From: Roseovarius bejariae
GTDB taxonomy: Bacteria; Pseudomonadota; Alphaproteobacteria; Rhodobacterales; Rhodobacteraceae
Direction: 5' to 3'
DNA length: 64,000 bases
Assembly: GCF_009669325.1 (NCBI RefSeq)
Contig: NZ_SZWE01000001.1
Span: 310,402 to 374,401, forward strand
The notes beneath the pieces are model-generated. The model saw nothing but the letters and a program-made list of their open reading frames with translations. It searched no databases and was not told the origin of the DNA. This document shows positions 7,481 through 41,792 of the stretch, piece by piece (position 1 is the stretch's first letter; every line of letters starts with the position of its first letter). A program made the position numbers and the translations under genes.

Positions 7481-10237
7481 TTAGCGGCCCAATGACCACC
7501 AGCCGCGTTTCTTGGGCTTGGCCGGTGTGGCCTCACTGGCCTCTGCCGGGGCGGGTGCGGCCTCTTTCGGGGCCTCCTGCACCGCCGGGGCGGGTTCCGG
7601 GGCCTCCTGAGCGACCGGGGCGGCTTCAGCGGCTTTTTCCGGCTGAGGGGCGGCCTTGGCCTTTTCCTTCGGGGCTTCGGCGGGGGCCTCCTCTTTGGGG
7701 CTGTCGGCCTTGGCCTTGGCGGTGCTGCGCGGTTTGCGCGTCCGCTTGGGCTTCTCGGCCTTGGCCTCGCCGGTGTCGGCCTTGTCGTCTGCGCCGTCTG
7801 CCTTGGTTTCGGCATCCGCGGCCTTTGTATCTTCGGCTTTTGCCTCATCGGCTTTGGCCTTGGATTTTGAGCGCGACCGCGAGCGTGTGGCCTTCTTCGG
7901 CTTGTCCTCGGAGGGTTTTTCCTCAGCCTTGTCGTCGGTCTTGGCTTCGGCGGCTTCGGAAGGCTGGGCGGCCTCGCCCCCGGACTCGGAGGGTTTCTCC
8001 CCCTCGTTGCCGTTCTGTGCCTCGCCGTTCTGGCCCTCTTCGCCCGATTTGGACTTGGAGCGGCGGCGACGGCGGCGGCGGCGCTTCTTGGGTTTGCCCT
8101 CTTCGCCGTTGTTGTCACCGTTCTCGGCAGTGTTGTCCGATTTGGCTTCGGCCGATTCTTCGGTTGAACTGTCGATGTCATCCATCAGCGAGCTGTCGAC
8201 CGACACCACCGGGGCTGTCGCCTCGGGGACATTACGGGTTGCTGTCTTGAACTTCTCGATGCTGAAATCGGGCGAGATCAGCAGCGGGTCACCCTCGATA
8301 CGAACGGACAGGCCGTAGCGCGCCTCGATTTGCGCGACATGTTCACGTTTCTGGTTCATTAGGAAGTTGGCGATGCCCACGGGGCATTTCACCAGGACCT
8401 CGCGCGAACGGCCGCGCACGCCCTCTTCCTCGATCTGGCGCAGGATCGACAGGGCGAGGTTGTCGTCCGAGCGGATCAGACCCGTGCCGTGACAGGCAGG
8501 GCATGGCTGTGTCGTGGCCTCGATCATGCCGGGGCGCAGGCGTTGGCGGCTCATTTCCATCAGGCCGAACCCCGAGATGCGGCCCACCTGAATGCGGGCG
8601 CGGTCGGTTTTCAGCTTGTCCTTCATCCGTTTTTCGACGGCGGCGTTGTTCTTGCGCTCGTCCATGTCGATGAAGTCGATCACGATGAGACCGGCCAGAT
8701 CGCGCAGGCGCAATTGGCGGGCCACCTCTTCGGCGGCCTCAAGGTTGGTCTTGAGGGCGGTTTCCTCGATCGAGCCTTCCTTGGTGGCGCGGCCGGAGTT
8801 CACGTCGATGGCGACGAGCGCCTCGGTCACACCGATGACGATGTAACCGCCCGACTTGAGCTGTACCGTCGGGTTGAACATTGAACTGAGGTAGCTTTCC
8901 ACCTGGTAACGGGCGAAAAGCGGCAGCGCGTCCTGATAGTGTTTCACGTTCTTGGCGTGGGACGGCATGATCATTTTCATGAAGTCCTTGGCGATGCGGT
9001 AGCCGCGTTCGCCTTCGACCAGAACCTCGTCAATCTCGCGGTTATACAGGTCACGGATCGACCGTTTGATCAGGTCGCCTTCTTCGTAGATCTTCGCGGG
9101 CGCGATGGATTTCAGCGTAAGTTCGCGGATCTGTTCCCAAAGGCGTTGCAGGTATTCGTAATCGCGCTTGATTTCCGCCTTGGTGCGCTTGGCCCCGGCG
9201 GTGCGGATGATCAGGCCCGCCCCGGTGGGCACGTCGATTTCCGCGGCAGTCGCCTTGAGCTTCTTGCGGTCGGCGGCGTTGGTGATCTTGCGCGAGATGC
9301 CGCCGCCACGGGCGGTGTTGGGCATCAGGACACAGTAGCGGCCCGCGAGGCTGAGGTAGGTTGTCAGGGCGGCGCCCTTGTTGCCGCGTTCTTCCTTGAC
9401 GACCTGCACCAGAAGGATCTGGCGGACCTTGATCACTTCCTGGATTTTATACCGGCGCGGGCGCGGTTTGCGCGGCGGGCGGATGTCTTCGTGATCGTCA
9501 TCGTCGGCGACGGATTCGATCGAGTCGTCTTTCGAGCTGGCGTCAGAGGGTTTTGCGGCCCCCTCGTCGGAATCGTCGTTGCCCTCATCTTTGGCGGCGT
9601 CGGCCTTGGCCGGTGCTTTGGAGGTCTTGGCAGCGCTGTCTGCGGCTTTATCCTCCGCGGTTGCGCTCGTGTCCGATGTATCGTCGGAGGGTTCCTCGAC
9701 CGGGGTTTCGGCCACGGTTTCCATGGGCGAAGAGCCCTCGGGCGTGCCTTCGGACGCTGGCGTTTCGAGGTCGATGGTTTCCATGCCGGAAATTTCGCCA
9801 TTCTCGGCGGTGGTTTCGGCCTCGGTGCTGATCACGGCATCCCCGGCCTCGGTCTTTTCGGCCTTGGTCTTGGAGCGTGACCGCGAGCGGGAGCGCGATG
9901 GTTTCTTGGGTTTCTCGTCGTCTTCCTCGCGGGCGCGCTGTGCCTCGGCATAGGCGCGTTCCTCTTCCAGCAGCGCCTCGCGGTCGGCCACGGGGATCTG
10001 GTAGTAATCCGGGTGGATTTCCGAGAAGGCAAGGAAGCCGTGGCGGTTGCCGCCGTAATCGACGAAGGCCGCCTGAAGCGAGGGTTCGACCCGTGTTACC
10101 TTGGCGAGATAGATGTTTCCGGCGAGTTGCCGTTTGTTGTCGGATTCAAAATCAAATTCCTCGACCTTGTTTCCGTCGACCACCACGACGCGGGTTTCTT
10201 CCGCGTGGGTGGCATCGATGAGCATTTTCTTAGCCAT
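7481..10237 (-). CDS. rne: Ribonuclease E/G
   Basis: A 918-residue endoribonuclease that initiates mRNA decay and rRNA/tRNA processing and scaffolds the degradosome. The N-terminal S1 domain (about 35-300) is interrupted by a roughly 160-residue acidic/Ser-Arg low-complexity insert (about 95-255). The catalytic DNase I-like domain includes AIDVNSGRATKEG near 475 and IVIDFIDMDERKN. The zinc-link CPACHGTG near 577 mediates dimerisation. A long Ala/Glu/Lys/Arg-rich disordered tail follows from about 670, containing a RRRRRRRR-type RNA-binding patch, and it ends KKRGWWSLGR. I start at MAKKML (10237) with GGATAA just upstream, not the five-codon longer frame. Confidence 0.96.
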   Translation of the reverse strand: MAKKMLIDATHAEETRVVVVDGNKVEEFDFESDNKRQLAGNIYLAKVTRVEPSLQAAFVDYGGNRHGFLAFSEIHPDYYQIPVADREALLEEERAYAEAQRAREEDDEKPKKPSRSRSRSRSKTKAEKTEAGDAVISTEAETTAENGEISGMETIDLETPASEGTPEGSSPMETVAETPVEEPSDDTSDTSATAEDKAADSAAKTSKAPAKADAAKDEGNDDSDEGAAKPSDASSKDDSIESVADDDDHEDIRPPRKPRPRRYKIQEVIKVRQILLVQVVKEERGNKGAALTTYLSLAGRYCVLMPNTARGGGISRKITNAADRKKLKATAAEIDVPTGAGLIIRTAGAKRTKAEIKRDYEYLQRLWEQIRELTLKSIAPAKIYEEGDLIKRSIRDLYNREIDEVLVEGERGYRIAKDFMKMIMPSHAKNVKHYQDALPLFARYQVESYLSSMFNPTVQLKSGGYIVIGVTEALVAIDVNSGRATKEGSIEETALKTNLEAAEEVARQLRLRDLAGLIVIDFIDMDERKNNAAVEKRMKDKLKTDRARIQVGRISGFGLMEMSRQRLRPGMIEATTQPCPACHGTGLIRSDDNLALSILRQIEEEGVRGRSREVLVKCPVGIANFLMNQKREHVAQIEARYGLSVRIEGDPLLISPDFSIEKFKTATRNVPEATAPVVSVDSSLMDDIDSSTEESAEAKSDNTAENGDNNGEEGKPKKRRRRRRRRSKSKSGEEGQNGEAQNGNEGEKPSESGGEAAQPSEAAEAKTDDKAEEKPSEDKPKKATRSRSRSKSKAKADEAKAEDTKAADAETKADGADDKADTGEAKAEKPKRTRKPRSTAKAKADSPKEEAPAEAPKEKAKAAPQPEKAAEAAPVAQEAPEPAPAVQEAPKEAAPAPAEASEATPAKPKKRGWWSLGR

Positions 10238-13838: not shown

Positions 13839-14507
13839 TCAGGCCGCCACGACCTGCGAGACAAGGCTTTCGAAAAGGGCCGCGCCATCGGTGCCGCCGT
13901 GTGCCTCTTCGGCCATGCGTTCGGGGTGTGGCATCATGCCGAGCACCCGGCGGTTTTCCGACAGGATCCCGGCGATGTCATCGACCGAGCCGTTGGGATT
14001 GTCGTTGTAGGTGAAGGCGACCCGCGCCTCGCCGTGCAAGCGCTTGAGGGTCTCGGGATCGGCGAAATAGTTGCCGTCATGGTGGGCAATCGGGAAGGTG
14101 ACCGTCTGGCCCGCCTCGTAGCCGCAGGTATAGGCGCTGTCGGCGGTTTGCACGGTCAGGTCCACCGGCTTGCAGATATATTTCAGGGCCGCGTTGCGCA
14201 GCAGGACGCCCGGCAGCAGGCCGGTTTCGGTGAGCACCTGAAAGCCGTTGCAGATGCCAAGGACATAACCGCCCTTTTCGGCATGGGCGACGACCGAGCG
14301 GCAAATCGGGGAATTGGCGGCGATCGCGCCGCAGCGCAGGTAATCGCCGAAGGAGAACCCACCGGGCACGCCGATCAGGTCGATGCCCTCGGGGAGCGCG
14401 GTATCCTTGTGCCAGACCATGGAGACCTTGGCCCCTGCCCGCTCAAGCGCCACGGCCATGTCACGATCACAGTTGGAGCCGGGAAAGACGATGACGGCGG
14501 CGTGCAT
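13839..14507 (-). CDS. purQ: Phosphoribosylformylglycinamidine synthase, glutaminase subunit
   Basis: A 222-residue class I glutamine amidotransferase that supplies ammonia to PurL in step four of purine synthesis. It starts [16 protein letters not shown], has the nucleophile Cys in GICNGFQVL near 86, and a His-Glu pair in MPHPERM near the C-terminus. Its ATG overlaps the purS stop by one base (TGATG), so the start at 14507 is firm. Cotranscribed with purC and purS; purL is not in the window. Small PurQ together with PurS is the split, non-fused form of FGAM synthetase. Confidence 0.97.
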
Positions 14508-28605: not shown

Positions 28606-28680
28606 TCCGGCGTAGCTCAGCGGTAGAGCAGTTGACTGTTAATCAATTGGTCGTAGGTTCGATCCCTACCGCCGGAGCCA
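28606..28680 (+). tRNA. tRNA-Asn (GTT)
   Basis: A 75-nt cloverleaf with anticodon loop CTGTTAA (GUU, Asn) and encoded CCA. Its last 16 bases (28665-28680) are repeated exactly at 35737-35752, marking it as the attachment site of an integrated element that keeps the tRNA intact. Confidence 0.97.
28665..28680 (+). repeat. attL: 16-bp direct repeat in the tRNA-Asn 3' end
   Basis: CCTACCGCCGGAGCCA, identical to 35737-35752. The bases on both sides differ between the copies, so the match is exactly 16 bp. It covers the T-stem 3' strand, acceptor strand and CCA, the usual core site of tyrosine integrases. Confidence 0.93.
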
Positions 28681-28766
28681 TTTTCCCCTTGAAAATGGAA
28701 TAATATCAATAAATTAAGCGACATGTCGCTCCGCTCGGCACACATCTGAGCACACACGGAGCACAC

Positions 28767-30167
28767 ATGGGGCTGATATTGAAGCACGTAGAGAAAACCA
28801 AATCAGGCCGCTGGCAGTATCGGCGGAGAGTTCCCAAAGAAGTCGCTGAGGTCATCGACAAGCGGGAGTTCAAGCGCGTCCTCGGGGATACCGAGCGGGA
28901 GGCGTTGAAGGTCTACCCTCAGTTCCACGCAGAGGTTGAGCGGGCCATTGAGAAGGCCAAGGGCGATGCTGGTCATGTAGCCGCCGCCGACCGGAACGAA
29001 TTGACCACGCGCCAAGCTTTCGGGATTGCCCGCGCCCGTGCTGCGTCTCTTGCCCACGATGCTGACACCGCTGAGAAGCGAGAGGCGATCATTGAGGCCC
29101 TGTCTGCCCCCTATGACCTTGATGAGGAAACCCTTGACCCCCTCAACGCGACTGAGGTGGACCGCATGGTCATCAACATTCTCAGGAACGGTGCAGAGGC
29201 GACGAAGCGCCCGGACCCGACCCTAGAGGACGCGAAAAAACTCTACTTTTCTGAGAAACAAAGAACTGACACGCCCGAACAGCTTCGCAGCCTTATGGGG
29301 CAAGTAAACCGTTCAATCCTGCTGACACAGGAGGCTTTTGGCCGTGATCCGGTGTTGACGGAAATGACTCGCGAAGACGCCCGCAATGTGCGCGACCATA
29401 TGCTTGATCAAGTTAAGGTGAATGGGGAACGGATCAGCGCGGCTTCGGTCCAGAAGTATCTGAATTTGCTCAAAGCGGTCATCAACACCGCAGCAAACGA
29501 AATGGGGCTTCCTGCAACATTCAAGAACCCCTTCAATGATCTCAAAATACCGAAACCAAAAGGTGCACCAGATGCTGGTGAAGGAGAAAAGCGCGAACCG
29601 CTGCCCCCAGAGGTGCTAAAAGCCGTGCGAAACCGTATCCTTTCCCGAGTACGCATCCCCGAAGCCAGACTTATCTGGCGCCTACTAGAAGGTACTGGCT
29701 GCCGTTTGTCGGAAGTTCGGGGCCTACGAGTTGAAGACGTGACCACAGAGGGGGAGACACCGCATATCAGTGTCGCTTGGCATGACGAAAGGCGGGTAAA
29801 AGCAGAATCGTCATTCCGGTGTGTGCCGCTGGTCGGTGACGCGCTAGAGGCTGCTAGGGAGGCCGTTGCCGCCTCCGAAGGTGATAAGTTCTTGTTTGTT
29901 CGATACCTCGGAAAGAATGGAGCGGATAATATCTCCAGCCTTCTGATGGGCCATGTCCGCAAAGAAACCGCCAACCCTAAGCATGTGGTTCACTCGCTGC
30001 GGCACAATATGAAGGATTGGCTGCGGGAGGCGGAGGTCTCGAAACAGGATCAAGACCTGATCCTAGGCCATGCTAGTTCGGACGTGGGGGACCGCGTGTA
30101 TGGGGGCAACGTGGCGAGGTTGAGAGCCGCCACAAGGGCCATGAAGAAGGCCCTCGGGGTGGATTAA
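28767..30167 (+). CDS. int: Tyrosine recombinase / integrase
   Basis: A 466-residue phage-type integrase. The N-terminal arm-binding part (KSGRWQYRRRVPKEVAEVI) resembles the DUF6538 domain of proteobacterial integrases. A core-binding domain lies at about 170-270. The catalytic domain has Arg in GCRLSEVRGL near 312, HSLRHNMKDWL (HxxR) near 408-418, LGHAS near 433 and the nucleophile Tyr in DRVYGG near 443. All catalytic residues are present, so it should be active. It starts 86 bases from attL, as expected for the integrase of this element. Confidence 0.96.
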   Translation: MGLILKHVEKTKSGRWQYRRRVPKEVAEVIDKREFKRVLGDTEREALKVYPQFHAEVERAIEKAKGDAGHVAAADRNELTTRQAFGIARARAASLAHDADTAEKREAIIEALSAPYDLDEETLDPLNATEVDRMVINILRNGAEATKRPDPTLEDAKKLYFSEKQRTDTPEQLRSLMGQVNRSILLTQEAFGRDPVLTEMTREDARNVRDHMLDQVKVNGERISAASVQKYLNLLKAVINTAANEMGLPATFKNPFNDLKIPKPKGAPDAGEGEKREPLPPEVLKAVRNRILSRVRIPEARLIWRLLEGTGCRLSEVRGLRVEDVTTEGETPHISVAWHDERRVKAESSFRCVPLVGDALEAAREAVAASEGDKFLFVRYLGKNGADNISSLLMGHVRKETANPKHVVHSLRHNMKDWLREAEVSKQDQDLILGHASSDVGDRVYGGNVARLRAATRAMKKALGVD

Positions 30168-30174
30168 TTGGGGC

Positions 30175-30756
30175 TTAGGCGGGGAGACCCTGCCGCGCTT
30201 TCCAGCCCGCTTGTGTTGCGGCTTCTCGCTCATGCAATGCACGGCTGAGGACATTTGCAGGGCTGCGCCGACTATGCCCGCTTACAGCGACTAAATTCTT
30301 GCGGCGGAGGTCCAGCCCGTTGCCATTCTGGACGGAAACCTTTTTGCCGCCCGGCAGGTTCAATATGAGGCGGGCCACGGTAATTTTTACACCCACCTTG
30401 CGGTGTTGCAGCGGGGCGTCGGTCTGGACATACGTGAAGCCGTTCGAGCGGTTTGCGAACCACAGACCATCAGCCCCAGCATCGCGCACAGACCAGTAAT
30501 CTGCCACTTCAACAAGGGCGTGAATATCACGGCGGTCATTCAAGGCCACCAGATAGCAAGCTACTCCGTCCTCATCGACACAGGGGACCGGCCAGCGGGC
30601 CTTTCGCTTGGCCTTGAGATAGTCAGCTTGCTTCGGGTGAAGATATGCCACGGCGCGTTCGTCTGCGGCCTTGAGCCGTGCAAATTCGCTTAGGGTAAGA
30701 GGGCGATAGCCCGACAATCCATTGATCTCGGGCATGAAATTCAATTCGTGTTTCAT
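30175..30756 (-). CDS. Phage-type protein with HNH/AP2-like C-terminal motif
   Basis: A 193-residue protein starting MKHELNFMPEINGLSGYRPL, with GAAAGGA upstream of the ATG at 30756. The C-terminal third (RLILNLPGGKKVSVQNGNG and then LDLRRKNLVAVSG) resembles the phage HNH/AP2 homing-endonuclease layout in which a His-x-(D/N)-x-N core is followed by LDxRxxNL. The catalytic His is not clear: NGNGLDLRRKNL stands where H(I/L)DGNxxNNRxxNL would be. It may be a DNA-binding remnant rather than a nuclease. Last gene of the leftward block; converges on the integrase. Confidence 0.6.
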   Translation of the reverse strand: MKHELNFMPEINGLSGYRPLTLSEFARLKAADERAVAYLHPKQADYLKAKRKARWPVPCVDEDGVACYLVALNDRRDIHALVEVADYWSVRDAGADGLWFANRSNGFTYVQTDAPLQHRKVGVKITVARLILNLPGGKKVSVQNGNGLDLRRKNLVAVSGHSRRSPANVLSRALHEREAATQAGWKARQGLPA

Positions 30757-31089
30757 GGGTATTCCTTTCGGGGTGTTTTTTGGGGGTGATTGAGCCTTGC
30801 CCATCTACCGCTCAGGAGGATGCCCTACCGACCCCCACGCGGTCGCGCTGGGAAAGGAAGAATACCGAACACGCGAACGCAATCGGCAGGGCACCCGCCA
30901 GAACGGCAGATAAGCAAGGCACGGTCTCCAGTGAACGGGAAAGACCCTCCCAGCCGCTAGGCGCTCAATCGGTCACAAGGCGGCGGAGGGAGGTCAGTTC
31001 AATGGAGAAGGTTGAGCGCCATCAAGGCGCGGCTAGAGGCGTCTAACGGTGCCTCTGCGGGGCTGTGTGTGAACGCCAGTGGCTGGCCC
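30757..31089. other. Gap without a supported gene
   Basis: 333 bases between two leftward genes of the element. An 88-codon rightward frame (30780-31046) has no ribosome-binding site or recognisable motif and I do not accept it. I see no tRNA, clear terminator or long repeat here. Confidence 0.5.
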
Positions 31090-31371
31090 CTACCGCATGT
31101 CATCGGGCCATTGCTCATGGTCCGCGTCATGTTCATCAAGGTCTGTCGTGCCATCGCTGGCGTTTAGCACTGCGTTGGGCACTGTCGCCTTGCGGCGTTG
31201 TTCCGCCTCCCACGTGTTCCACCAGATCACGCGACCATCCGGGCACAAGACCACCTCGCGCCGATCCTGATCGGTGGCGGCGGTGTATCCGGGCGGGAGG
31301 GAGCGTTGCCGTTCGGCGGTGCGACTATCGTGGATGACGATGGGCTGCATCTTGAACAGGCTGTAGGTCAT
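31090..31371 (-). CDS. Unknown small acidic protein of the element
   Basis: A 93-residue protein starting MTYSLFKMQPIVIHD. It has a middle segment REVVLCPDGRVIWWNTWEAE and an Asp/Glu/His-rich C-terminus. Its ATG overlaps the stop of the preceding zinc-finger gene (ATGA, 31368-31371), which is the main evidence that this shorter start, not a frame reaching 31632, is correct. I do not recognise the family. Confidence 0.65.
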   Translation of the reverse strand: MTYSLFKMQPIVIHDSRTAERQRSLPPGYTAATDQDRREVVLCPDGRVIWWNTWEAEQRRKATVPNAVLNASDGTTDLDEHDADHEQWPDDMR

Positions 31372-31565
31372 TTGCGCCCTGCCCTTGCCCGCGCCCGTTC
31401 TCGGCGGCGTTCCCTGCGAACGTGTCGCTGTTCCGTCGCGCCCCCCCGGCAGATAGCGGCGGTGTGAGAGGGAGGCACGAAGTCCAGCCCGCACATGGGG
31501 CAATTTTTGATGGGCGGAATGGCTGCGCTGCGCCGGGGTGTGATGTGGACTACGGCGCGGGTCAT
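31368..31565 (-). CDS. Small zinc-finger-like protein with basic tail
   Basis: A 65-residue protein with CPMCGLDFVPPSHTAAIC, giving Cys-x2-Cys, a His and a third Cys, like the treble-clef or CCHC fingers of small phage proteins. It ends in a run of Arg-rich residues (HVRRERRRERARARAGRK). It probably binds nucleic acid. Its ATG overlaps the stop of the 325-residue gene (31562-31565) and its stop overlaps the next start, so it is the middle of a coupled set. Confidence 0.7.
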   Translation of the reverse strand: MTRAVVHITPRRSAAIPPIKNCPMCGLDFVPPSHTAAICRGGATEQRHVRRERRRERARARAGRK

Positions 31566-32539
31566 ACGCGCACCAGTCCCATACGGACAGCCGCACCAAA
31601 GGACATTTCAGGTTGACCGGGAATGGTGACACGCCAGTCGTTCGTTAGGCGGTCATAGCGGAGGGCCTTGCGTTCCTCTGCGGGCATGTCCTCCAGCATT
31701 TCCTTGAACCCTTCCGGGTCCAACTTGGGCATATTGGCGAGGTGATCCACGGCGGCGTTGGCGATGCTTACGAAACCGTCTGTGTCACCGTTCACCACGG
31801 CCGTGCGGGCAGCGCGAAGCTGGTCCTCGCTCAAGACCTCGCTCATCATGGCGATGGAGGCGCTGGGCGCACGTTCGGACAGGGTGTTCTCTGCCTGAGC
31901 CATGTAACCGGCGTAGACCTGTTTCGCCTGAACCTCGCTAACCCCTTCGGGCAGCATGTCCAGCACCGTTTCAGGTTCGCCACCGTTCTCAACGGCGTGG
32001 CTGATAAGACCATCGGTCACATGCGCCCCGTGGAATTGATCCACACCTTGCAGAATGTCGCTGGCAACCTTGGCGCGGTGCGCGGCGGGGCTGTCGTCCG
32101 CGTCAGTATCGGTGTCAGCCGCAGCGTTCGCCTTATCGTCAGCCTGAGCGCCCTTCGGGTTGCCTTGAGAGGCAGCCTTCGGGGCATTGTCAAAAGGGAG
32201 CGGGTCGCCCTCGCGGTAGCTCTGCGGCAGGAGACCACCAGCCTTAGCGGCGTCAATCGTGGTCTCGCCCACGCCGGGAATGACCACATGGCCGGGGCGG
32301 AGTGGTGCGTTGGCATAGGCCGTGCCACCGTTCGGGCCGAAACCCTTGTTCACGGTCTCTGTCGAGAGCTGACCATCCTTCATTGTCGAGGTGTGAACAG
32401 CGGCGGTGGTGATCTTGATGTTGTCGAACGTCCCGGCCTTCTTACCGGCCTGTTGATCCTCAAGCTGTTGTTGCAGCGTGGCGAGGTCATCGGCGGAGAA
32501 GTCAGTGGGCGACATATCGACGGATTGGAAATTACTCAT
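31562..32539 (-). CDS. Unknown 325-residue acidic protein of the element
   Basis: It starts MSNFQSVDMSPTDFSADDL with GAAAGGA upstream. Residues 1-45 are polar and Gln-rich, about 115-150 are an Ala/Asp low-complexity linker, and about 160-300 are helical (MLPEGVSEVQAKQVYAGYMA, then LSEDQLRAARTAVVNGD). The C-terminus ends RMGLVRV. The acidic, linker-containing, helical-hairpin character is loosely like capsid assembly (scaffold) proteins of T7-like phages, but this is a weak impression. It is coupled to its neighbours on both sides. Function unknown. Confidence 0.75.
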   Translation of the reverse strand: MSNFQSVDMSPTDFSADDLATLQQQLEDQQAGKKAGTFDNIKITTAAVHTSTMKDGQLSTETVNKGFGPNGGTAYANAPLRPGHVVIPGVGETTIDAAKAGGLLPQSYREGDPLPFDNAPKAASQGNPKGAQADDKANAAADTDTDADDSPAAHRAKVASDILQGVDQFHGAHVTDGLISHAVENGGEPETVLDMLPEGVSEVQAKQVYAGYMAQAENTLSERAPSASIAMMSEVLSEDQLRAARTAVVNGDTDGFVSIANAAVDHLANMPKLDPEGFKEMLEDMPAEERKALRYDRLTNDWRVTIPGQPEMSFGAAVRMGLVRV

Positions 32540-32670
32540 TGGGTGTTCCTTTCAGGGTTGTTGATTTGGGGTGTCGGGTGCGCCGGGGGCGCGGTGGTCG
32601 GTGGTCTCAGAACTGCGTTCATCAGCAGTTGGAAATCACTCAGGGCAACCTTCCTGCCCATGTTCGTCAT
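32536..32670 (-). CDS. Unknown 44-residue protein coupled to the 325-residue gene
   Basis: Starts MTNMGRKVALSDFQLLMNAV and continues with a Pro/Thr-rich tail ending NNPERNTQ. Its TGA overlaps the ATG of the next gene (32536-32539). A start at 32661 is equally possible and the frame is open further upstream to 32766. The coupling is the main support; the product could be a leader or a real small protein. Confidence 0.45.
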   Translation of the reverse strand: MTNMGRKVALSDFQLLMNAVLRPPTTAPPAHPTPQINNPERNTQ

Positions 32671-33029
32671 CCCGGCTGGTGGACCATGATGGAGACGCAC
32701 GGTGCGACGTGGCGGGATGCAGAAAATGTTGAGGAAGGTTGGCCCTAATGCTGCACGTAATCCCACGGCTTCCGCACCAGCGGAGCCATGTGAACGACCT
32801 AGGCAGAGGTGATTCTATGGGGAAGCCTTAGAGGCTTTTAGGTGGGACCATAGGTGGCCCCCTCTGGTAGACTTATACAGGGATATTGAGGGGAGTGGGT
32901 GGGAGGTGATGCACCGGGTCATCAGCATAAGGGCAGCTACCTGATGAACCATGTCATCCACCTACATCTATCCTGTTAATGTAAACCTTCGGGGGCCTAT
33001 GTCCGAGGGGAGGGGGTTTTACCCAGCCA
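32671..33029. other. Gap without a supported gene
   Basis: 359 bases inside the element. It contains several G-runs and short inverted repeats but no frame with a ribosome-binding site, no clear promoter boxes and no long repeat. It may hold the promoter of the leftward coupled genes. Confidence 0.45.
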
Positions 33030-33398
33030 CTAGCGTTCGACCACAGCGCGAAGCCGTTCCGCAGCTTCCCCTACTCCTACCGGGTGTATCCCTTGAACCT
33101 CGTGGGCCTCCCTGATCTTGGACAACGCCACAGAGACGCACACGGCCACGTCAGGGGCGCTCAATGGCTTTCCGAGGCTCACCCCCTCGGCGGCCATACC
33201 AAGTTGCTCCACGGCGTCCTTGAGGGCGCTCAGGGTGTCCAGAGACGTGGGGGAAAGGGCGCTACCCCCGGCGGTGGCGTCAGCGTTAGCGTCAGCATTA
33301 GCGTCAGCGTTAGCGTAGAGGTGATCTGTAAGGGCGATAAGGTGGTCTATTACGTCGAGGGCAGGACTGGTTGCGGTGTGTCCAAGTGGTTAGTTCAT
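33030..33398 (-). pseudogene. Interrupted small gene with stop at codon 3
   Basis: From the ATG at 33398, preceded by GAAAGGA, the frame reads Met-Asn-stop (TAA, 33390-33392) and then stays open for 119 codons to 33030. The downstream frame has a start of its own (GTG at 33212, with AAGGA four bases upstream) giving a 60-residue product MEQLGMAAEGVSLGKPLSAP. The upstream half contains an Asn-Ala-Asp-Ala repeat from a 12-bp tandem repeat. Either a nonsense mutation has silenced the full gene, or only the 60-residue form is made. Confidence 0.5.
33277..33317. repeat. 12-bp tandem repeat, 3.4 copies
   Basis: Unit GCGTCAGCGTTA at 33277, 33289 (one G-to-A change) and 33301, then a partial copy. 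Read on the minus strand it encodes Asn-Ala-Asp-Ala units in the interrupted gene. Slippage-prone length variation is possible. Confidence 0.9.
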
Positions 33399-33676
33399 AT
33401 CAGCGATCCTTTCATGGTGAAGTTGCGTTAATGCTTCACTTTATAAGTCGCATGTAAGTAATTGTATATGCTAAATAAAGTTCCCATATGGGGAGCATTT
33501 TCAGCTAGCCCCACCAACACGGGACCAAGCCGTTTCTAAAGGGGCTTCTCAACGGTGTGCTTAGGGTGTCGTTAGGGTGGACCGCCGGGGCACAGGAGGG
33601 CCGATGGACAAAGACAGATAGGACAAGACAGAAGCGCGAATATCCCGCTATCTGCCCGTACATGGCCCCTTCCCGG

Positions 33677-33772
33677 TCAGCCGCCAATCAGTCTCCAGAC
33701 CCCCATTATACCGGCCAACGTGGCTATGATCATATAGCCCCAACTGATCCCGAACAGAATGATCTCAACCAT
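33677..33772 (-). CDS. 31-residue single-span membrane peptide
   Basis: Met-Val-Glu followed by a hydrophobic stretch (IILFGISWGYMIIATLAGIM) and a short tail ending RLIGG. It begins two bases after the serine recombinase stop with GGGGAGG as ribosome-binding site, so it is well placed for translation. One membrane span. Small toxins and holin-like or stress peptides have this form, but nothing identifies it. Confidence 0.55.
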   Translation of the reverse strand: MVEIILFGISWGYMIIATLAGIMGVWRLIGG

Positions 33773-33774
33773 GG

Positions 33775-34341
33775 TCACGCCTCCCCTTTCGCCTCATCAA
33801 GTATCCGGTAGACACTCGCCCTGCCGATCTCCAACCGCTTGGCGATCTCGGTACCGCCCACCCCCTCACGGTACATTTGCAAGACCTCCTCCGCCTTGGC
33901 CCGTGCGGTGGGCTTCCGGCCCTTATACTTACCCTTAGCCTTGGCCTTGGCGATCCCCTCGCGCTGACGCTCTAGCATGATCTCCCGCTCAAACTCAGCA
34001 ACACCGCCCAGCATGGTCAACATGAACTTCCCTGTTGGGGTACTCGTGTCGAGGTTCATATTCAGGATACGGAGCGCCGCGCCCCGGTCGGTCAGGGTGT
34101 CGAGGATTTCCAGCAGGTGGGCCACAGAGCGGGCCAGACGGTCCAGCTTGGTCACGACTAGGGTGTCACCCTCCCGGACGTAAGACAGGGCCTCAGCGAG
34201 CTTGTGACGCTCCCTCACGTCCACCGACGATACCTGTTCAATGAACAGACGGTCACACCCCGCCTCGTTCAACTCCCGCTTCTGCCCCTCAAGGCCAGCC
34301 TTCTGGTCCAGTGTCGAGGTTCGCGCATATCCTACCAACAT
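33775..34341 (-). CDS. Serine recombinase (resolvase/invertase family)
   Basis: A 188-residue protein with an N-terminal catalytic domain. The nucleophile Ser is in YARTSTLDQ near residue 9, VTKLDRLARS (Arg motif) lies near 65 and the long E helix includes GVAEFEREIMLERQREGI. A C-terminal helix-turn-helix follows (GGTEIAKRLEIGRASVYRIL). It resembles Tn3-type resolvases and plasmid multimer resolvases. TGTCTC repeats directly upstream are candidate binding sites. It is separate in kind from the tyrosine integrase and may have come with the protease-side segment. Confidence 0.95.
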   Translation of the reverse strand: MLVGYARTSTLDQKAGLEGQKRELNEAGCDRLFIEQVSSVDVRERHKLAEALSYVREGDTLVVTKLDRLARSVAHLLEILDTLTDRGAALRILNMNLDTSTPTGKFMLTMLGGVAEFEREIMLERQREGIAKAKAKGKYKGRKPTARAKAEEVLQMYREGVGGTEIAKRLEIGRASVYRILDEAKGEA

Positions 34342-34454
34342 GTCTCATGTCTCCTACTTGTGTCTCACAATGTCTTAGACATGATAAGCCGAGCTGTCTC
34401 AAAACGTCAAGGTAATTCTTTTGGGACGCATTACGGAACACCGTGAGACGTCTC
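34341..34454. repeat. TGTCT repeats upstream of recombinase: candidate res site
   Basis: TGTCT(C/T) occurs at 34341, 34349, 34361, 34371 and 34395, with ATGTCTTAGACAT (34370-34382) forming a palindrome. GAGACGTCTC at 34445-34454 gives another symmetric copy. Resolvases bind several such dyads beside their gene. Subsite borders cannot be fixed by eye. Confidence 0.5.
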
Positions 34455-34744
34455 GCTAGAGCTTGCCCTCTGGGACAGCGAGGGGCGATTGAACGCTAGT
34501 GGCAGAGTTTGTCGCGCGGGGAATATCGGAAGGCGGCGTTGCGGCGGCTCGACCTGTGGCAGGAGAACGAAGTCAACAGAGACCCCAGCCTATCCCGACA
34601 ACGCCACCCCCACCGGGGGGACGTGCTGTTCATTAACTGTTGAGTTCGGGGGCTCAGATTTTTTCTTCAAAATTGCTGCCACTTGTCGAAGAGTGATCCG
34701 GTCACGTATGGCGTATCCGAGTTTCATTTTTCTGGGAGGGTATC
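34455..34744. other. Intergenic region with possible gene remnant
   Basis: Nothing complete. A rightward frame from about 34453 to 34642, interrupted by TAG at 34498-34500, contains SRGEYRKAALRRLDLWQENE and could be the residue of a decayed gene. The last bases (GGGAGGG) are the ribosome-binding site of the protease gene. This, with the recombinase-side repeats, makes a 403-base stretch without an intact gene. Confidence 0.35.
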
Positions 34745-35539
34745 TTGACCTACCTGCAGAGCTACGTCGTTCCGATTTGCACCTATGACATTGATGAGGA
34801 ACGAGCCGACCTCAAGCGCCTACACGGGACAGCATTCTATTTTGGTGCGAATGGCTTCTATTTGACTGCTCGTCATGTCATCGAAGCCGCGTTGAAAGCG
34901 GCTGAACAAGACGACGTCAAAGCCGGTTTGGTGGTCAAAAGCAATCATGGTCAAGGTCTTGAAAGCATGGCCCTTGACCTCAAACAATACGAGTTTGCCC
35001 CACAGCCGTTCGATGTTGCTGTCGGGCGATCCGGATACTTTCCCAAGACCCCACTTCGAACAAACATGACCGAAGCTCACGTCTGGACCGACATTGCCGC
35101 TCTTGGATACCCCGATAGCGCCTCAGTGAAAGACCAAGATGGTCTGTGGATGAATGTTCGAGGATATCGAGGGCATATCCAGCGCCCGACAATTCCACGG
35201 GATATTGCGATTGGCACCCACCCAAACGGATTTGAGCTTAGCTTCCTGACAGGCCCCGGCTCCAGCGGCGGGCCAGTGTTCTGCGTTGATACTGAGACAG
35301 TGATTGGGGTTATTGTTGCTTCCTTTCGATCTGAGCATATCGAGGACCAAGTGGTCGAAGTTCAGAGCAATGGAGCCGAATACCGAGAGATGCGAGTGCG
35401 GGTCGAGCAATTCGGATTCGCCCATGACATTCGTGGACTGCTTGATTGGAAAGCCGATCTCTTTGAAGGTCATACACTCAGCGAAATTTCGGAAATGCCC
35501 TTTGGGCAACTGCCCTCCACGCGTGACTTGGCACCCTAG
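34745..35539 (+). CDS. Trypsin-like serine protease, probably cytoplasmic
   Basis: A 264-residue protein with the chymotrypsin-fold catalytic triad: His in LTARHVIEAA near 39, Asp in PFDVAVGRS near 90, and Ser in TGPGSSGGPVFC near 176. It lacks a signal peptide and a PDZ domain, so it is not a periplasmic DegP/HtrA. The start is TTG with GGGAGGG four bases upstream; no in-frame ATG fits better. Base composition is clearly AT-richer than the host. It is the cargo gene nearest attR. Proteases of this kind occur in some anti-phage systems, but a defence role here is inference. Confidence 0.85.
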   Translation: MTYLQSYVVPICTYDIDEERADLKRLHGTAFYFGANGFYLTARHVIEAALKAAEQDDVKAGLVVKSNHGQGLESMALDLKQYEFAPQPFDVAVGRSGYFPKTPLRTNMTEAHVWTDIAALGYPDSASVKDQDGLWMNVRGYRGHIQRPTIPRDIAIGTHPNGFELSFLTGPGSSGGPVFCVDTETVIGVIVASFRSEHIEDQVVEVQSNGAEYREMRVRVEQFGFAHDIRGLLDWKADLFEGHTLSEISEMPFGQLPSTRDLAP

Positions 35540-35736
35540 CGCACCCTATAGATTGACCGAAGCTCTACGTGAACTTGGAGCTTGCTGTTTGGCACTTCTT
35601 CTGCAAGACACAGGCACACAAATCCACCACCCTCGGCACACACGCCGGGAAATCGGGTTGGAGCGCATGTCGCGCAAAGCATTGATATAAAGGCGTTTGA
35701 GGCACATCAGACCAAGTTTGGTTCGACCCCGCCTCG

Positions 35737-35752
35737 CCTACCGCCGGAGCCA
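35737..35752 (+). repeat. attR: 16-bp direct repeat
   Basis: CCTACCGCCGGAGCCA, the same as the end of tRNA-Asn (28665-28680). GGTTCGA, the T-loop sequence, also occurs at 35720-35726, ten bases left of the repeat, as though a slightly longer tRNA fragment had once been here. Confidence 0.93.
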
Positions 35753-35760
35753 AAAGTTTC

Positions 35761-35823: not shown

Positions 35824-36195
35824 TTACTCCTCGTCCTCTTCGCGATTGGGGGGATCAACATAGACAGACCAGCCATATTCGCTTTGCGACGGCGGCAGAT
35901 CCTTGGCGCGGATGTTGGCCTGAAGGAAGGTCTTGGCGATGAAATGCGCGCTGATCGGGGCGGTGAGAAACAAGAACAGCGTGATCAGCAGTTCGTGGAA
36001 CGACAGGTGCCCCTTCACCAGCCCAAAGTAGAGCATGGAGGCGATGAGCACGCCGCCCACCCCCAGCGTCGTGGCTTTCGTGGGGGCATGAAGGCGCTGC
36101 ATGGTTTCTTGCAGCTTGATCATGCCAAGCGACCCCACCAGACCGAAAATGCCAGCGATGACGATGAAGGCGGAAATGATGATCTCCAGTAGCAT
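35824..36195 (-). CDS. mrpG: Na+/H+ antiporter subunit G
   Basis: A 123-residue protein of the PhaG/MnhG family starting MLLEIIISAFIVIAGIFGLV, with three hydrophobic segments and the HAPTKATTLGVGG motif. It is a small accessory subunit of the multi-subunit Mrp cation/proton antiporter. I start at 36195; the longer frame is the antisense of mrpF. Last gene of the mrp operon; it ends in an acidic tail (PPNREEDEE). Confidence 0.94.
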   Translation of the reverse strand: MLLEIIISAFIVIAGIFGLVGSLGMIKLQETMQRLHAPTKATTLGVGGVLIASMLYFGLVKGHLSFHELLITLFLFLTAPISAHFIAKTFLQANIRAKDLPPSQSEYGWSVYVDPPNREEDEE

Positions 36196-38930: not shown

Positions 38931-41792
38931 TCAGTCGGTCTCCTTCTCGGTGGTGATGTCGAGTGATGGGTCATAATCCATCGGATCCACGTTGACGGTT
39001 TCACCGGCATAACGAGCGATGCGCGACAGGCTGTAGAGCATGAGCATCACCGCGCCCAGCACCGTGAGGAACACGCCAAGATCGAACATGAAGGCCGAGC
39101 CGAAACCGAATTTCTCGATCCCGGGCAAGTAGATATATTCATAGAAACTGGTCAGGAACGGGCGCCCAAAGAGGAAGGCCCCTGCCCCGGTCAGACCGGC
39201 CAGCACCGCGCCCCAGCCGATCAGCGAATGGTACTCGATCCGCTTGCGGCTTTGTGTCCATGCAAAGCCCGAGGCCATGTATTGCATCAAGAGCGCAATG
39301 GAGATCACGAGGCCCGCGACGAACCCGCCTCCCGGTTGGTTATGCCCGCGCAGGAAGATGTAGACGCCCACCATGACGGCAATCGGCAGCATGGCACGGG
39401 TGCCCACCACCATCATCAAAGGGTGTCGGTCGCGTGAGCGATCGGGGGGCACGGGCGCCGCGCGAAGCTTGCGGCCCGCCGGGCCATTCAGCAGTGTTTC
39501 CATCAAGGCGTAAATCGTGAGGCCTGCGATCCCCAGAACGATGATTTCGCCATAGGTGTCGTAGCCCCGGAAATCAACGAGGATGACGTTGACCACGTTG
39601 GTTCCGCCGCCGCCCGTATAGGAGTTGGCGAGGTGGTAATCGGAGATCGTGCTGAAATCGCGGGTGAGGAAAGCATAGGCGAGCCCGGCCACGGCTCCGC
39701 CCGCTGCTATGGCGATGGCCCCGTCACGCAAACGCAGGCCCGCGCCGCTTTCGCGCGGGGTGCCTTTCGGCATAAAGTAAAGCGCCAAGAGCAGCAGCAT
39801 GATCGTGACGGTTTCGACCGAGATTTGCGTCAGCGCGAGGTCGGGCGCGGACAGGTAGACGAAACCACCCGAGACCATGAGGCCGATCACCCCGATCAGC
39901 ACCAGCGCGCGGAAACGGTTGCGGTGATTTATGACCACAAGCGCCGTTGCCACCATCAAGAGCACCCAGCCCACGGCAACAACGGCCGGAATGGGCAGGA
40001 GGTCGCGCGTGGGGGGCGAAAGTGTCCCGGAGGTGAAGGCGAGATAGCCAAGCGCCGTGGTTACAGCGACAAATATCGCCAGATAGCGGCTGATGGCGCC
40101 GTTGTGCAGGGTTTCCGAAGTCGCCCGCGTCAGGCGTACCGCCGCGGCAATCAGGGTATCGAAGATGTTTTTCGCCTCGGGACGTGGGGTGGCGAGCCAC
40201 ACGCGATCCAGCGGTTTGTGCAGCAGCAAGAGGATCGCGCCGCCAACGACTGCGATGATCGACAGGTAAAGCGCGGGCGTCAGGCCGTGCCAGAGCTTGA
40301 GGTGGGCATGGGTTTCGTGGCCGGTGACCGCTGTCGCGGCCATGTTGACCACCGGCTCGGCAAGGAAGGGCATGATGCCGATTACCACGACCATCACGGT
40401 CAGCAATGCCGGTGCGGCCCACATACCGAAGGGCGGGTCATGCGGCTTGGCCGGGTAATCATCGCGTACCGGTCCGCCGAAGACGTGGAAGATGAACCGC
40501 AGGCTGTAGGCAACCGAGAACACCGCGCCAAGCGTGGCAAGGGCCGCCACGATCCACGGGTTTTCCCACCAGACGGTATGCACCGCTTCTTCCAGCATTT
40601 TTTCCTTGGAAATGAAGCCGTTGAAGGGGGCGATCCCGGCCATGGAAAGCGCGGTGATCGTGCCGATCACGGCGGTAATGGGCATGAGTTTGGCCAAGCC
40701 ACCGAGGCGCTTGATATCGCGGGTATGCGCCTCGTGATCGATAATGCCCGCAGTCATGAAGAGCGCGGCCTTGAAGGTGAGGTGGTTGATGATATGGAAG
40801 ACGGCACCAATAGCGGCGGCCTTTGTTCCAAAGCCCAGAAGCATGGTCAGCAGGCCAAGGTGCGAGACCGTCGAAAAAGCCAGAAGCGCCTTGAGGTCAT
40901 CCTTGAAGAGCGCGATCACCGCGCCCAGAACCATGGTGATCAGGCCCACTGTGGCAACGATGTAGAACCATTCGGGCGTTCCTGCGAGGGCGGGCCACAT
41001 GCGCGCCATCAGGAACACCCCCGCCTTCACCATGGTCGCCGAGTGCAGGTAGGCCGAGACCGGTGTCGGCGCGGCCATGGCGTGCGGCAACCAGAAGTGG
41101 AATGGGAATTGTGCGGACTTGGTAAAGGCCCCCAACAGGATCAGGATCAGCGCGGGCATATACCATTCCGACGCTTTGATCTGATCGCCTGCGGCAAGGA
41201 TATCGGTCAGGTTATAAGAACCCACGACATTGCCCAGGATCAACATGCCCCCGATCATGGCAAGGCCCCCTGCCCCTGTCACGGCCAAGGCCATGCGGGC
41301 GCCCTGACGGCCTTCGGGCAGGTGTTTCCAATAGCCGATGAGCAAGAAGGACGACAGCGAGGTCAGCTCCCAAAAGATCAGCAAAAGCAGGATGTTGTCG
41401 GACAGGACAATCCCAAGCATCGCGCCTTGGAACAGCAGCAGGTAAGTATAGAACTGCCCCATCGGGTCATCGCCCGAGAGGTAAAAGCGCGCATAGAGCG
41501 TGATTAGCAGGCCCACCCCGAGGATCATGCCCGCGAAAAGCAGGCCCAGACCATCAAGGAAGAAGCTGGCCGAAAGTCCCAGTTGCGGGAGCCATGCGAT
41601 TTCGGCGCGGACCACCTCGCCGTGCATCACCGAGGGCGCAAGCGTGCCCAGCATGACGATGGCAAGGATTGTCGGGGCGGCGGTGAAACTGGCACAGGCA
41701 TTGCGACCTGCCCGGATCATGATGCCGGGGACGAGGGCCCCGATGAATGGTAAAATTGCGATGATCGGTAATAGACTGCCGCCGTTGCTCAT
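38931..41792 (-). CDS. mrpA: Na+/H+ antiporter subunit A/B fusion
   Basis: A 953-residue protein. Residues 1-500 are the NuoL-like part with GYWKHLPEGRQGARMALAVT, PFHFWLPHAMAAPTPVSAYL and LHSATMVKAGVFL. From about 500 to 760 is the MrpA C-terminal extension. The last 190 residues (MVVGTRAMLPIAVMVGVYIF, GHNQPGGGFVAGL) are an MrpB domain. This A/B fusion is the PhaAB arrangement of alphaproteobacteria, so the operon encodes a complete seven-activity complex in six genes. Its job is Na+ or K+ efflux and pH homeostasis in the inner membrane. First gene of the operon. Confidence 0.96.
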   Translation of the reverse strand: MSNGGSLLPIIAILPFIGALVPGIMIRAGRNACASFTAAPTILAIVMLGTLAPSVMHGEVVRAEIAWLPQLGLSASFFLDGLGLLFAGMILGVGLLITLYARFYLSGDDPMGQFYTYLLLFQGAMLGIVLSDNILLLLIFWELTSLSSFLLIGYWKHLPEGRQGARMALAVTGAGGLAMIGGMLILGNVVGSYNLTDILAAGDQIKASEWYMPALILILLGAFTKSAQFPFHFWLPHAMAAPTPVSAYLHSATMVKAGVFLMARMWPALAGTPEWFYIVATVGLITMVLGAVIALFKDDLKALLAFSTVSHLGLLTMLLGFGTKAAAIGAVFHIINHLTFKAALFMTAGIIDHEAHTRDIKRLGGLAKLMPITAVIGTITALSMAGIAPFNGFISKEKMLEEAVHTVWWENPWIVAALATLGAVFSVAYSLRFIFHVFGGPVRDDYPAKPHDPPFGMWAAPALLTVMVVVIGIMPFLAEPVVNMAATAVTGHETHAHLKLWHGLTPALYLSIIAVVGGAILLLLHKPLDRVWLATPRPEAKNIFDTLIAAAVRLTRATSETLHNGAISRYLAIFVAVTTALGYLAFTSGTLSPPTRDLLPIPAVVAVGWVLLMVATALVVINHRNRFRALVLIGVIGLMVSGGFVYLSAPDLALTQISVETVTIMLLLLALYFMPKGTPRESGAGLRLRDGAIAIAAGGAVAGLAYAFLTRDFSTISDYHLANSYTGGGGTNVVNVILVDFRGYDTYGEIIVLGIAGLTIYALMETLLNGPAGRKLRAAPVPPDRSRDRHPLMMVVGTRAMLPIAVMVGVYIFLRGHNQPGGGFVAGLVISIALLMQYMASGFAWTQSRKRIEYHSLIGWGAVLAGLTGAGAFLFGRPFLTSFYEYIYLPGIEKFGFGSAFMFDLGVFLTVLGAVMLMLYSLSRIARYAGETVNVDPMDYDPSLDITTEKETD

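Follow-up and report, generated by a model that had tools for sequence, protein, structure and literature searches.

A 7-kb integrative element at a tRNA-Asn gene of Roseovarius bejariae carries a T7-type genome-end site and is probably a phage satellite

We analyzed a 64,000-nucleotide stretch of the Roseovarius bejariae genome (contig NZ_SZWE01000001.1, hereafter the window), in which a small integrative element lies between two exact copies of the 3' end of a tRNA-Asn gene. We consider, with a probability of about 85%, that this element is an integrative phage satellite exploiting T7-like (Autographiviridae-type) podophages. An original prediction for this DNA had proposed either a phage satellite or a compact defence island. 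The first proposal is strongly supported by a T7-type genome-end site in the element and by a phage virion gene in a relative. The second survives as a possible added cargo role, suggested by weak matches of a protease to defence families, and we favor the satellite reading over it.

The element encodes an orphan protein of 325 residues, p325, and a scan of genome contigs for this protein gave six further loci, in Pelagivirga sediminicola (L004), Pseudotabrizicola sediminis (L005), Rhodovulum tesquicola (L006), Rhodovulum adriaticum (L007), a Rhizobiales isolate (L008) and Rhizobium cremeum (L009). A gene-blind comparison of the seven elements revealed one short non-coding stretch common to all of them, located between a serine recombinase gene and the cargo. 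This site, which the original prediction did not mention, is the most informative part of the element. When a 66-nt version of it was compared with 50,697 phage records, seven records matched, corresponding to four phages (PPWS1, PPWS2, Pf-WMP4 and Lbo240-yong1). All seven matches were less than 0.65 kb from a record end and four were inside annotated repeat regions; only this placing is informative, because each match had an E-value of about 6 and involved the G+C-rich core alone.

A closer counterpart was observed in Rhizobium phage Pasto (Autographiviridae), whose record gives a terminal repeat at positions 1-271, predicted with PhageTerm. Once the end of this record is joined to its start, most of the site, in reverse complement, can be aligned with the junction. 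Using nhmmer, we searched 399 kb of phage and host DNA with a profile of the sites of the seven elements. The Pasto junction was matched at E 5.1e-8 and phage TRX32-1 at E 0.0077, about 1.1 kb beyond terL. Weaker matches were located beyond the large-terminase gene of CRP-171 (0.059) and CRP-114 (1.8) and at the record start of RHEph21 (0.094, hairpin part only), and the weak match in T7 (E 8.2) straddles position 39778, where the right terminal repeat starts. As controls, the rest of the window reached 5.3 bits at best and six host stretches gave nothing at E <= 10. In both Pasto and T7, the genome end follows the first A of AAAAATCYGAG by 17 nt, and we therefore predict a cut at 34647/34646 on the minus strand of the element. 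A run of five C begins 43 nt after that A in the seven elements, in two remnants (see below) and in Pasto, and at 41-42 nt in T7, CRP-114, CRP-171 and TRX32-1. By these sequence comparisons, the site is homologous to the genome end (terminal repeat start) of T7-like phages.

We then scanned blindly with a strict pattern derived from the elements. It occurred once in the window and never in 100 shuffles of the window, up to two mismatches being allowed, and among 107 collected loci it was present in 11, all of them elements. Three of 394 genomes of the family carried it (none with the reversed control): the genome of the window and two others, G339 and G121, where it stands close to a tRNA-Gly gene and to what remains of the same integrase (L108:9914-9961 and L109:6161-6208). 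When 15 satellite proteins were tested, G339 also kept a recombinase 93% identical to that of L005, a Rha-type piece and a p325 piece, and G121 kept the integrase start only. Both elements are decayed, with most genes lost and the packaging-type site retained. In IMG/VR, where an earlier, over-strict form of the site had found no match, the strict pattern was present in six stretches, five of which have T7-like TerL or RNA polymerase genes. Four of the six contain a T7-like large terminase with the site approximately 0.3-0.75 kb beyond its end, although two of these four (L110 and L113) seem to be one phage, and one carries a T7-like RNA polymerase. The remaining stretch, L111 (site at 14099-14146), showed a weak primase match and no recognizable T7-like terminase or RNA polymerase in 14.4 kb. 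These scans indicate that the sequence copied by the elements is, to all appearance, the genome end of a T7-like phage.

The site could have another purpose than packaging, for example as a terminator or a replication terminus, in an element moved by conjugation or by other means. Its G+C-rich inverted repeat and a T-run 30-odd bases off would suit such a role, and no packaged copy was seen, since searches of INPHARED and PLSDB with p325 were negative (E 1e-5) and two IMG/VR pattern scans gave no confirmed match. We nevertheless regard this explanation as quite improbable. The site is conserved well past the hairpin, with a fixed spacing, it coincides with the genome end in Pasto and T7, and it follows TerL at the distance given above in four IMG/VR stretches. 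Moreover, no relaxase was matched when nine open reading frames (ORFs) of the element were scanned against Pfam, PHROGs, PADLOC and NCBIfam at E <= 0.1, a scan that did not include a search for a bare oriT.

The seven elements form a recurring mobile family, and the sequence of the window shows site-specific integration in tRNA-Asn with a tyrosine integrase of the element's own. In five of the six relatives a tRNA gene (Asn, Gly, Leu, Arg or Thr) adjoins the integrase, and copies of 16-19 bp of the tRNA end recur at 7,490, 7,026, 4,744, 13,248 and 6,964 bp; sizes are thus mostly 7.0-7.5 kb, except for one element of 13.2 kb and a decayed copy of 4.7 kb. In L007, the contig ends on the integrase side and the attR is of the tRNA-Asn type. 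Counting the element of the window, p325 and the serine recombinase are present in 7/7 elements and the integrase in 6/7. The integrase shares 61% identity with that of L004; in L005, L006, L008 and L009, the parts that could be matched are 38-60% identical. The recombinase has a counterpart in all six relatives, of a diverged type in L004 and L005 (31-36% identity). A conserved 209-residue protein is 52%, 38% and 30% identical over matched parts in L004, L008 and L007, respectively. For the conserved 93-residue protein, residues 90-180 encoded by a longer ORF (31090-31632) match L004 at 58%. More than one gene is therefore conserved across relatives, which corrects the single conserved gene of the original prediction.

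Two relatives, L008 and L009, contain phage virion or head-region genes. An 811-residue protein of L008 shares 52% identity over 808 residues with the product of Pasto gene 50 (Pasto_050), which is flanked on either side by a gene annotated as internal capsid protein and thereby holds the place of gp15 in T7 gene order. At least 44 further homologues of the L008 protein are listed among the best 8,000 candidates scored, none with a Pfam domain. In L009, a 76-residue ORF resembles the small gene that separates portal from scaffold in Pasto (44% over 54 residues, E 4e-10) and another similarity links an ORF to the RHEph01 antirepressor (E 2.6e-10). Rha-type regulators are present in L005 and L009.

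Given its site of T7-like kind, the element might also be read as what is left of a shrunken T7-like temperate prophage in which the integrase and the genome end were retained, and T7-like phages with an annotated integrase do occur in these hosts (RHEph01, CRP-114 and CRP-171). However, the integrases of elements and phages showed short, weak similarity only (27% for L008 and 32% for L009, over parts), and that of the window showed none at E 0.01. In the element, Pfam, PHROGs and the comparison with T7-like phages revealed neither an RNA polymerase gene nor any for portal, capsid, tail or terminase, whereas a non-phage gene core with a common layout recurs in seven loci at different tRNA genes, with the p325 frame open in each. 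We thus rejected the decayed prophage as the main explanation and consider it very improbable. The original prediction had named a decayed piece of a larger prophage or conjugative element as the finding that would count against it; matching att repeats in 6/7 elements and the shared core at different tRNA genes speak against such a fragment.

The stretch between the recombinase and attR is variable. It holds a trypsin-like protease in the window, a DUF6680 protein in L004 (PF20385, E 1.4e-51), a 192-residue protein in L005, a 345-residue protein in L006, and a weak HNH match with an 826-residue protein in L008. The protease gave weak PADLOC matches to PDC-M35A (8e-8), RT-Protease_XI (4.6e-7) and LmuA (8.7e-5). 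Variable cargo beside the site and these defence-type matches would also fit a stand-alone defence island, in which the acquired phage end, the only part required, serves as a decoy titrating the terminase while the element itself stays unpackaged. This is extremely unlikely in our view, because the conserved integrase, the several tRNA targets and the conserved serine recombinase indicate repeated transfer; packaging and interference are also compatible with each other.

The boundaries of the element were examined independently. As originally predicted, exact 16-bp repeats bound 7.07 kb, the measured spacing being 7,072 bp (Table 1). In the relative G454, homology with the window extends to 28681 and picks up again at 35751, and in G437 it extends to 28680 and picks up again at 35840; these breaks in flank homology support the boundaries. 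Other DNA occupies the tRNA-Asn site in both, about 19 kb in G437 and about 30 kb in G454 (loci L070, L071, L082 and L083), so that the site looks like an insertion hot spot and no empty copy was seen in these two genomes. The G+C content in 1-kb windows is 0.53-0.63 within the element against mostly 0.61-0.66 outside. The right-end arm is 85% identical over 143 bp in L007 and 73% over 144 bp in L004. We also observed GCACACA-type repeats near both ends of the element (28736-28768 and 35611-35753), possibly arm sites of the integrase.

The gene content, presented in Table 1, agrees with the original prediction in its main lines: the integrase comes first and reads inward from attL, and the family scans confirmed small unrecognized genes, a serine recombinase and a protease inside. 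As the prediction had stated, capsid, terminase, relaxase and replication genes were not recognized: in the four libraries, none of the nine ORFs scanned matched a family of capsid, terminase, relaxase, primase or AlpA.

Table 1. Features of the element and of its integration site (window coordinates).
Feature	Position	Strand	Evidence or remark
tRNA-Asn(gtt), intact; 3' end is the integration site	28606-28680	+	ARAGORN
attL core, 16 bp, CCTACCGCCGGAGCCA	28665-28680	+	exact direct repeat
Tyrosine integrase, 466 aa	28767-30167	+	PF00589, E 8.5e-12; DUF6538 N-terminus just under cut-off
Conserved 209-aa protein, no library family	30175-30804	-	cross-element matches
Conserved 93-aa protein	31090-31371	-	start chosen by us; start codon overlaps the preceding stop
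65-aa Cys-containing small protein	31368-31565	-	phrog_32573 (unknown function), E 8.8e-5; overlaps p325 stop codon
p325, hallmark orphan protein, 325 aa	31562-32539	-	open frame in 7/7 elements
Conserved 60-aa small ORF	33030-33212	-	52% over 40 aa with L004; 49% over 35 aa with L007
Small serine recombinase, 188 aa, resolvase/invertase type	33775-34341	-	PF00239, E 1.4e-43; phrog_125, E 8.6e-64
T7-type genome-end site (predicted packaging/cleavage)	34597-34674	-	conserved in 7/7 elements, about 60 bp
Strict pattern of the genome-end site	34616-34663	-	derived from the elements
Cargo trypsin-like protease, 264 aa, TTG start	34745-35539	+	PF13365, E 1.1e-9
Conserved right-end arm, possible integrase arm sites, ends in attR	35611-35753		cross-element alignment; strand unassigned
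attR core, 16 bp, exact copy of CCTACCGCCGGAGCCA	35737-35752	+	exact direct repeat

Scoring of 4,352 candidates gave 27 homologues of the hallmark protein p325. No confident family was assigned in library and profile scans, single members giving weak and inconsistent matches. The protein has a low-complexity middle and a helical C-terminal half; its AlphaFold model reached a mean pLDDT of 61.6 and a pTM of 0.44, with a pLDDT of 75-86 in residues 211-320, and the predicted fold had no match at E <= 0.001 in viral or PDB structure libraries. Among 60 genomes of the genus, p325 was detected in its own genome only. The profile found it in 2/394 family genomes (the second being G339, with a fragment) and a single-sequence search in 2/248 (the second being G111, with a weak match at E 9.5e-4). 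One homologue, P0001, is 94% identical and filed under Ferrimonas balearica, a gammaproteobacterium; this is either a mislabeled record or a recent long-range transfer. The INPHARED, PLSDB and IMG/VR results led us to reject p325 as a plasmid or phage gene. A T7-like scaffolding protein was not accepted either: in a profile comparison with five groups of T7-like proteins, the scaffold ranked first, but with a probability of 3.9% and an E-value of 0.011. One A1 member of p325 matched a scaffolding PHROG at E 0.012, and when two phage ORF sets were searched for p325 with hmmsearch, no match fell below E 1.

We propose that, upon helper infection, the element would excise as a 7,072-bp circle and be copied into concatemers by helper functions, copying being assigned to the helper since no replication gene was recognized. 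The cut by the helper terminase would fall in the acquired site, 17 nt past the first base of AAAAATC, and heads of normal size would be filled with about 5-6 head-to-tail copies. After arrival in a new cell, the multimer may be resolved by the conserved small serine recombinase, and a single unit would then be inserted in the tRNA gene by the integrase; we infer this resolvase role, an invertase role being equally open from the sequence. The region from the site to attR would form a cargo bay, here with a protease that may act as a defence gene and protect the host. As for p325, it may disturb the assembly or packaging of the helper or steer it elsewhere, in a scaffold-like manner, which is a guess. 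Elements of 7,072, 7,026 and 6,964 bp are 6.0-6.1 times smaller than the Pasto genome and 5.6-5.8 times smaller than those of T7 and the CRP phages. A size of 7,490 bp fits one sixth less well (5.3-5.7) and 13,248 bp is near one third (3.0-3.2), so that an element size of about one sixth of the helper genome is only a hint. Three T7-like phages of Rhodobacteraceae and Rhizobium have an annotated integrase (L101, L102 and L103), so that integrating T7-like phages may be helpers. The full scheme, a new satellite family across Rhodobacterales and Rhizobiales that to our knowledge would be the first to hijack T7-type terminal-repeat packaging, through a single site, about six 7-kb copies, a serine resolvase and a p325 redirecting helper assembly, is tentative, and we rate it slightly below even odds.

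Several observations weigh against the satellite reading. Excision, the helper, packaging and transfer are inferred from the sequence, and no helper for this host was identified among the phages compared. No phage-type promoter shared with candidate helpers was found: when up to three of the most repeated 19-mers of five phages were tested, with T7 as a working control, the closest matches in the elements had four mismatches and were not convincing. The element has no recognized gene for replication, an excisionase or capsid size and also lacks a clear phage structural gene (best match 29 residues, E 0.005), and p325 was not found in the collections named above. The integrase ORF is split in L005 and truncated in L006. 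Concerning the site, the two Roseobacter T7-like phages compared, CRP-171 and CRP-114, are only weakly similar, CRP-114 also has an internal match (3.3), and RHEph01 has a single match, which is internal (4.9). The site profile found no nhmmer match at the ends of Lo5R7ANS, PPWS1 and Pf-WMP4. The strict pattern was present in none of the phage records among the collected loci, Pasto being missed because its copy is split across the record ends. Finally, the six IMG/VR stretches with the site had none of the 15 satellite proteins (E 1e-5).

The element shows three general traits of phage satellites: site-specific integration with its own integrase, a predicted packaging signal of helper type, and the lack of a full set of virion genes. 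Among described satellites, PICI, cf-PICI and P4-like elements carry AlpA, replication (primase/Rep) and capsid-modifying genes and use P2- or lambda-like helpers. The element resembles them by tRNA att sites, by Rha/antirepressor genes in two relatives and by a cargo bay with possible defence genes. It differs by the absence of any AlpA, replication or capsid-modifying match in the ORFs scanned and by a probable helper that is T7-like. VEIMEs and tycheposons are integrative elements of marine bacteria that are proposed phage satellites. With T7-like alphaproteobacterial phages, the element has in common a genome-end architecture, clear in Pasto and weak in the CRP phages, and its relative L008 one virion gene; unlike them, it has no recognized polymerase, structural or terminase gene, and its integrase belongs to a family of its own. 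A further comparison is with the PICMI of Vibrionaceae. The prototype has 6,110 bp, an integrase and no capsid-remodeling genes; PICMI are packaged as concatemers with eight copies per full-size helper head, require int, alpA and primase and are located next to fis (PMC10803314). The element shares the small size, the integrase and the lack of capsid-remodeling genes, and the 5-6 copies per head that we propose follow the PICMI precedent (PMC10803314). In contrast to PICMI, the nine ORFs scanned gave no AlpA or primase match, its target is tRNA-Asn rather than fis, and it contains a helper signal of the T7 terminal-repeat type. The satellite kinds named in a 2024 review include PICI, cf-PICI, PLE, PICMI, VEIMEs and tycheposons, among others, and the terms "T7-like" and "podovir" do not occur in its main text (PMC11389934).

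The original prediction could not match the combination of features to a described family; in agreement with this, the families that could be compared (PICMI, and PICI/P4-like by their gene sets) did not fit. In the open-access literature, to which the search was confined to the exclusion of subscription papers, we found no satellite said to use T7-type packaging. We thus place the element among the satellites, with a proposed route of packaging that is undescribed in the open literature searched. T7 is among the best-studied phages. If our reading is true, a class of genomic parasites is added to a large group of phages, and such satellites could be traced in raw genomes by means of a short DNA pattern. 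The idea of a multimer and a resolvase would explain a second recombinase in so small an element. Since satellites should keep only what the helper must recognize, the sequence needs of T7-like terminases for cutting would become testable by natural comparison.

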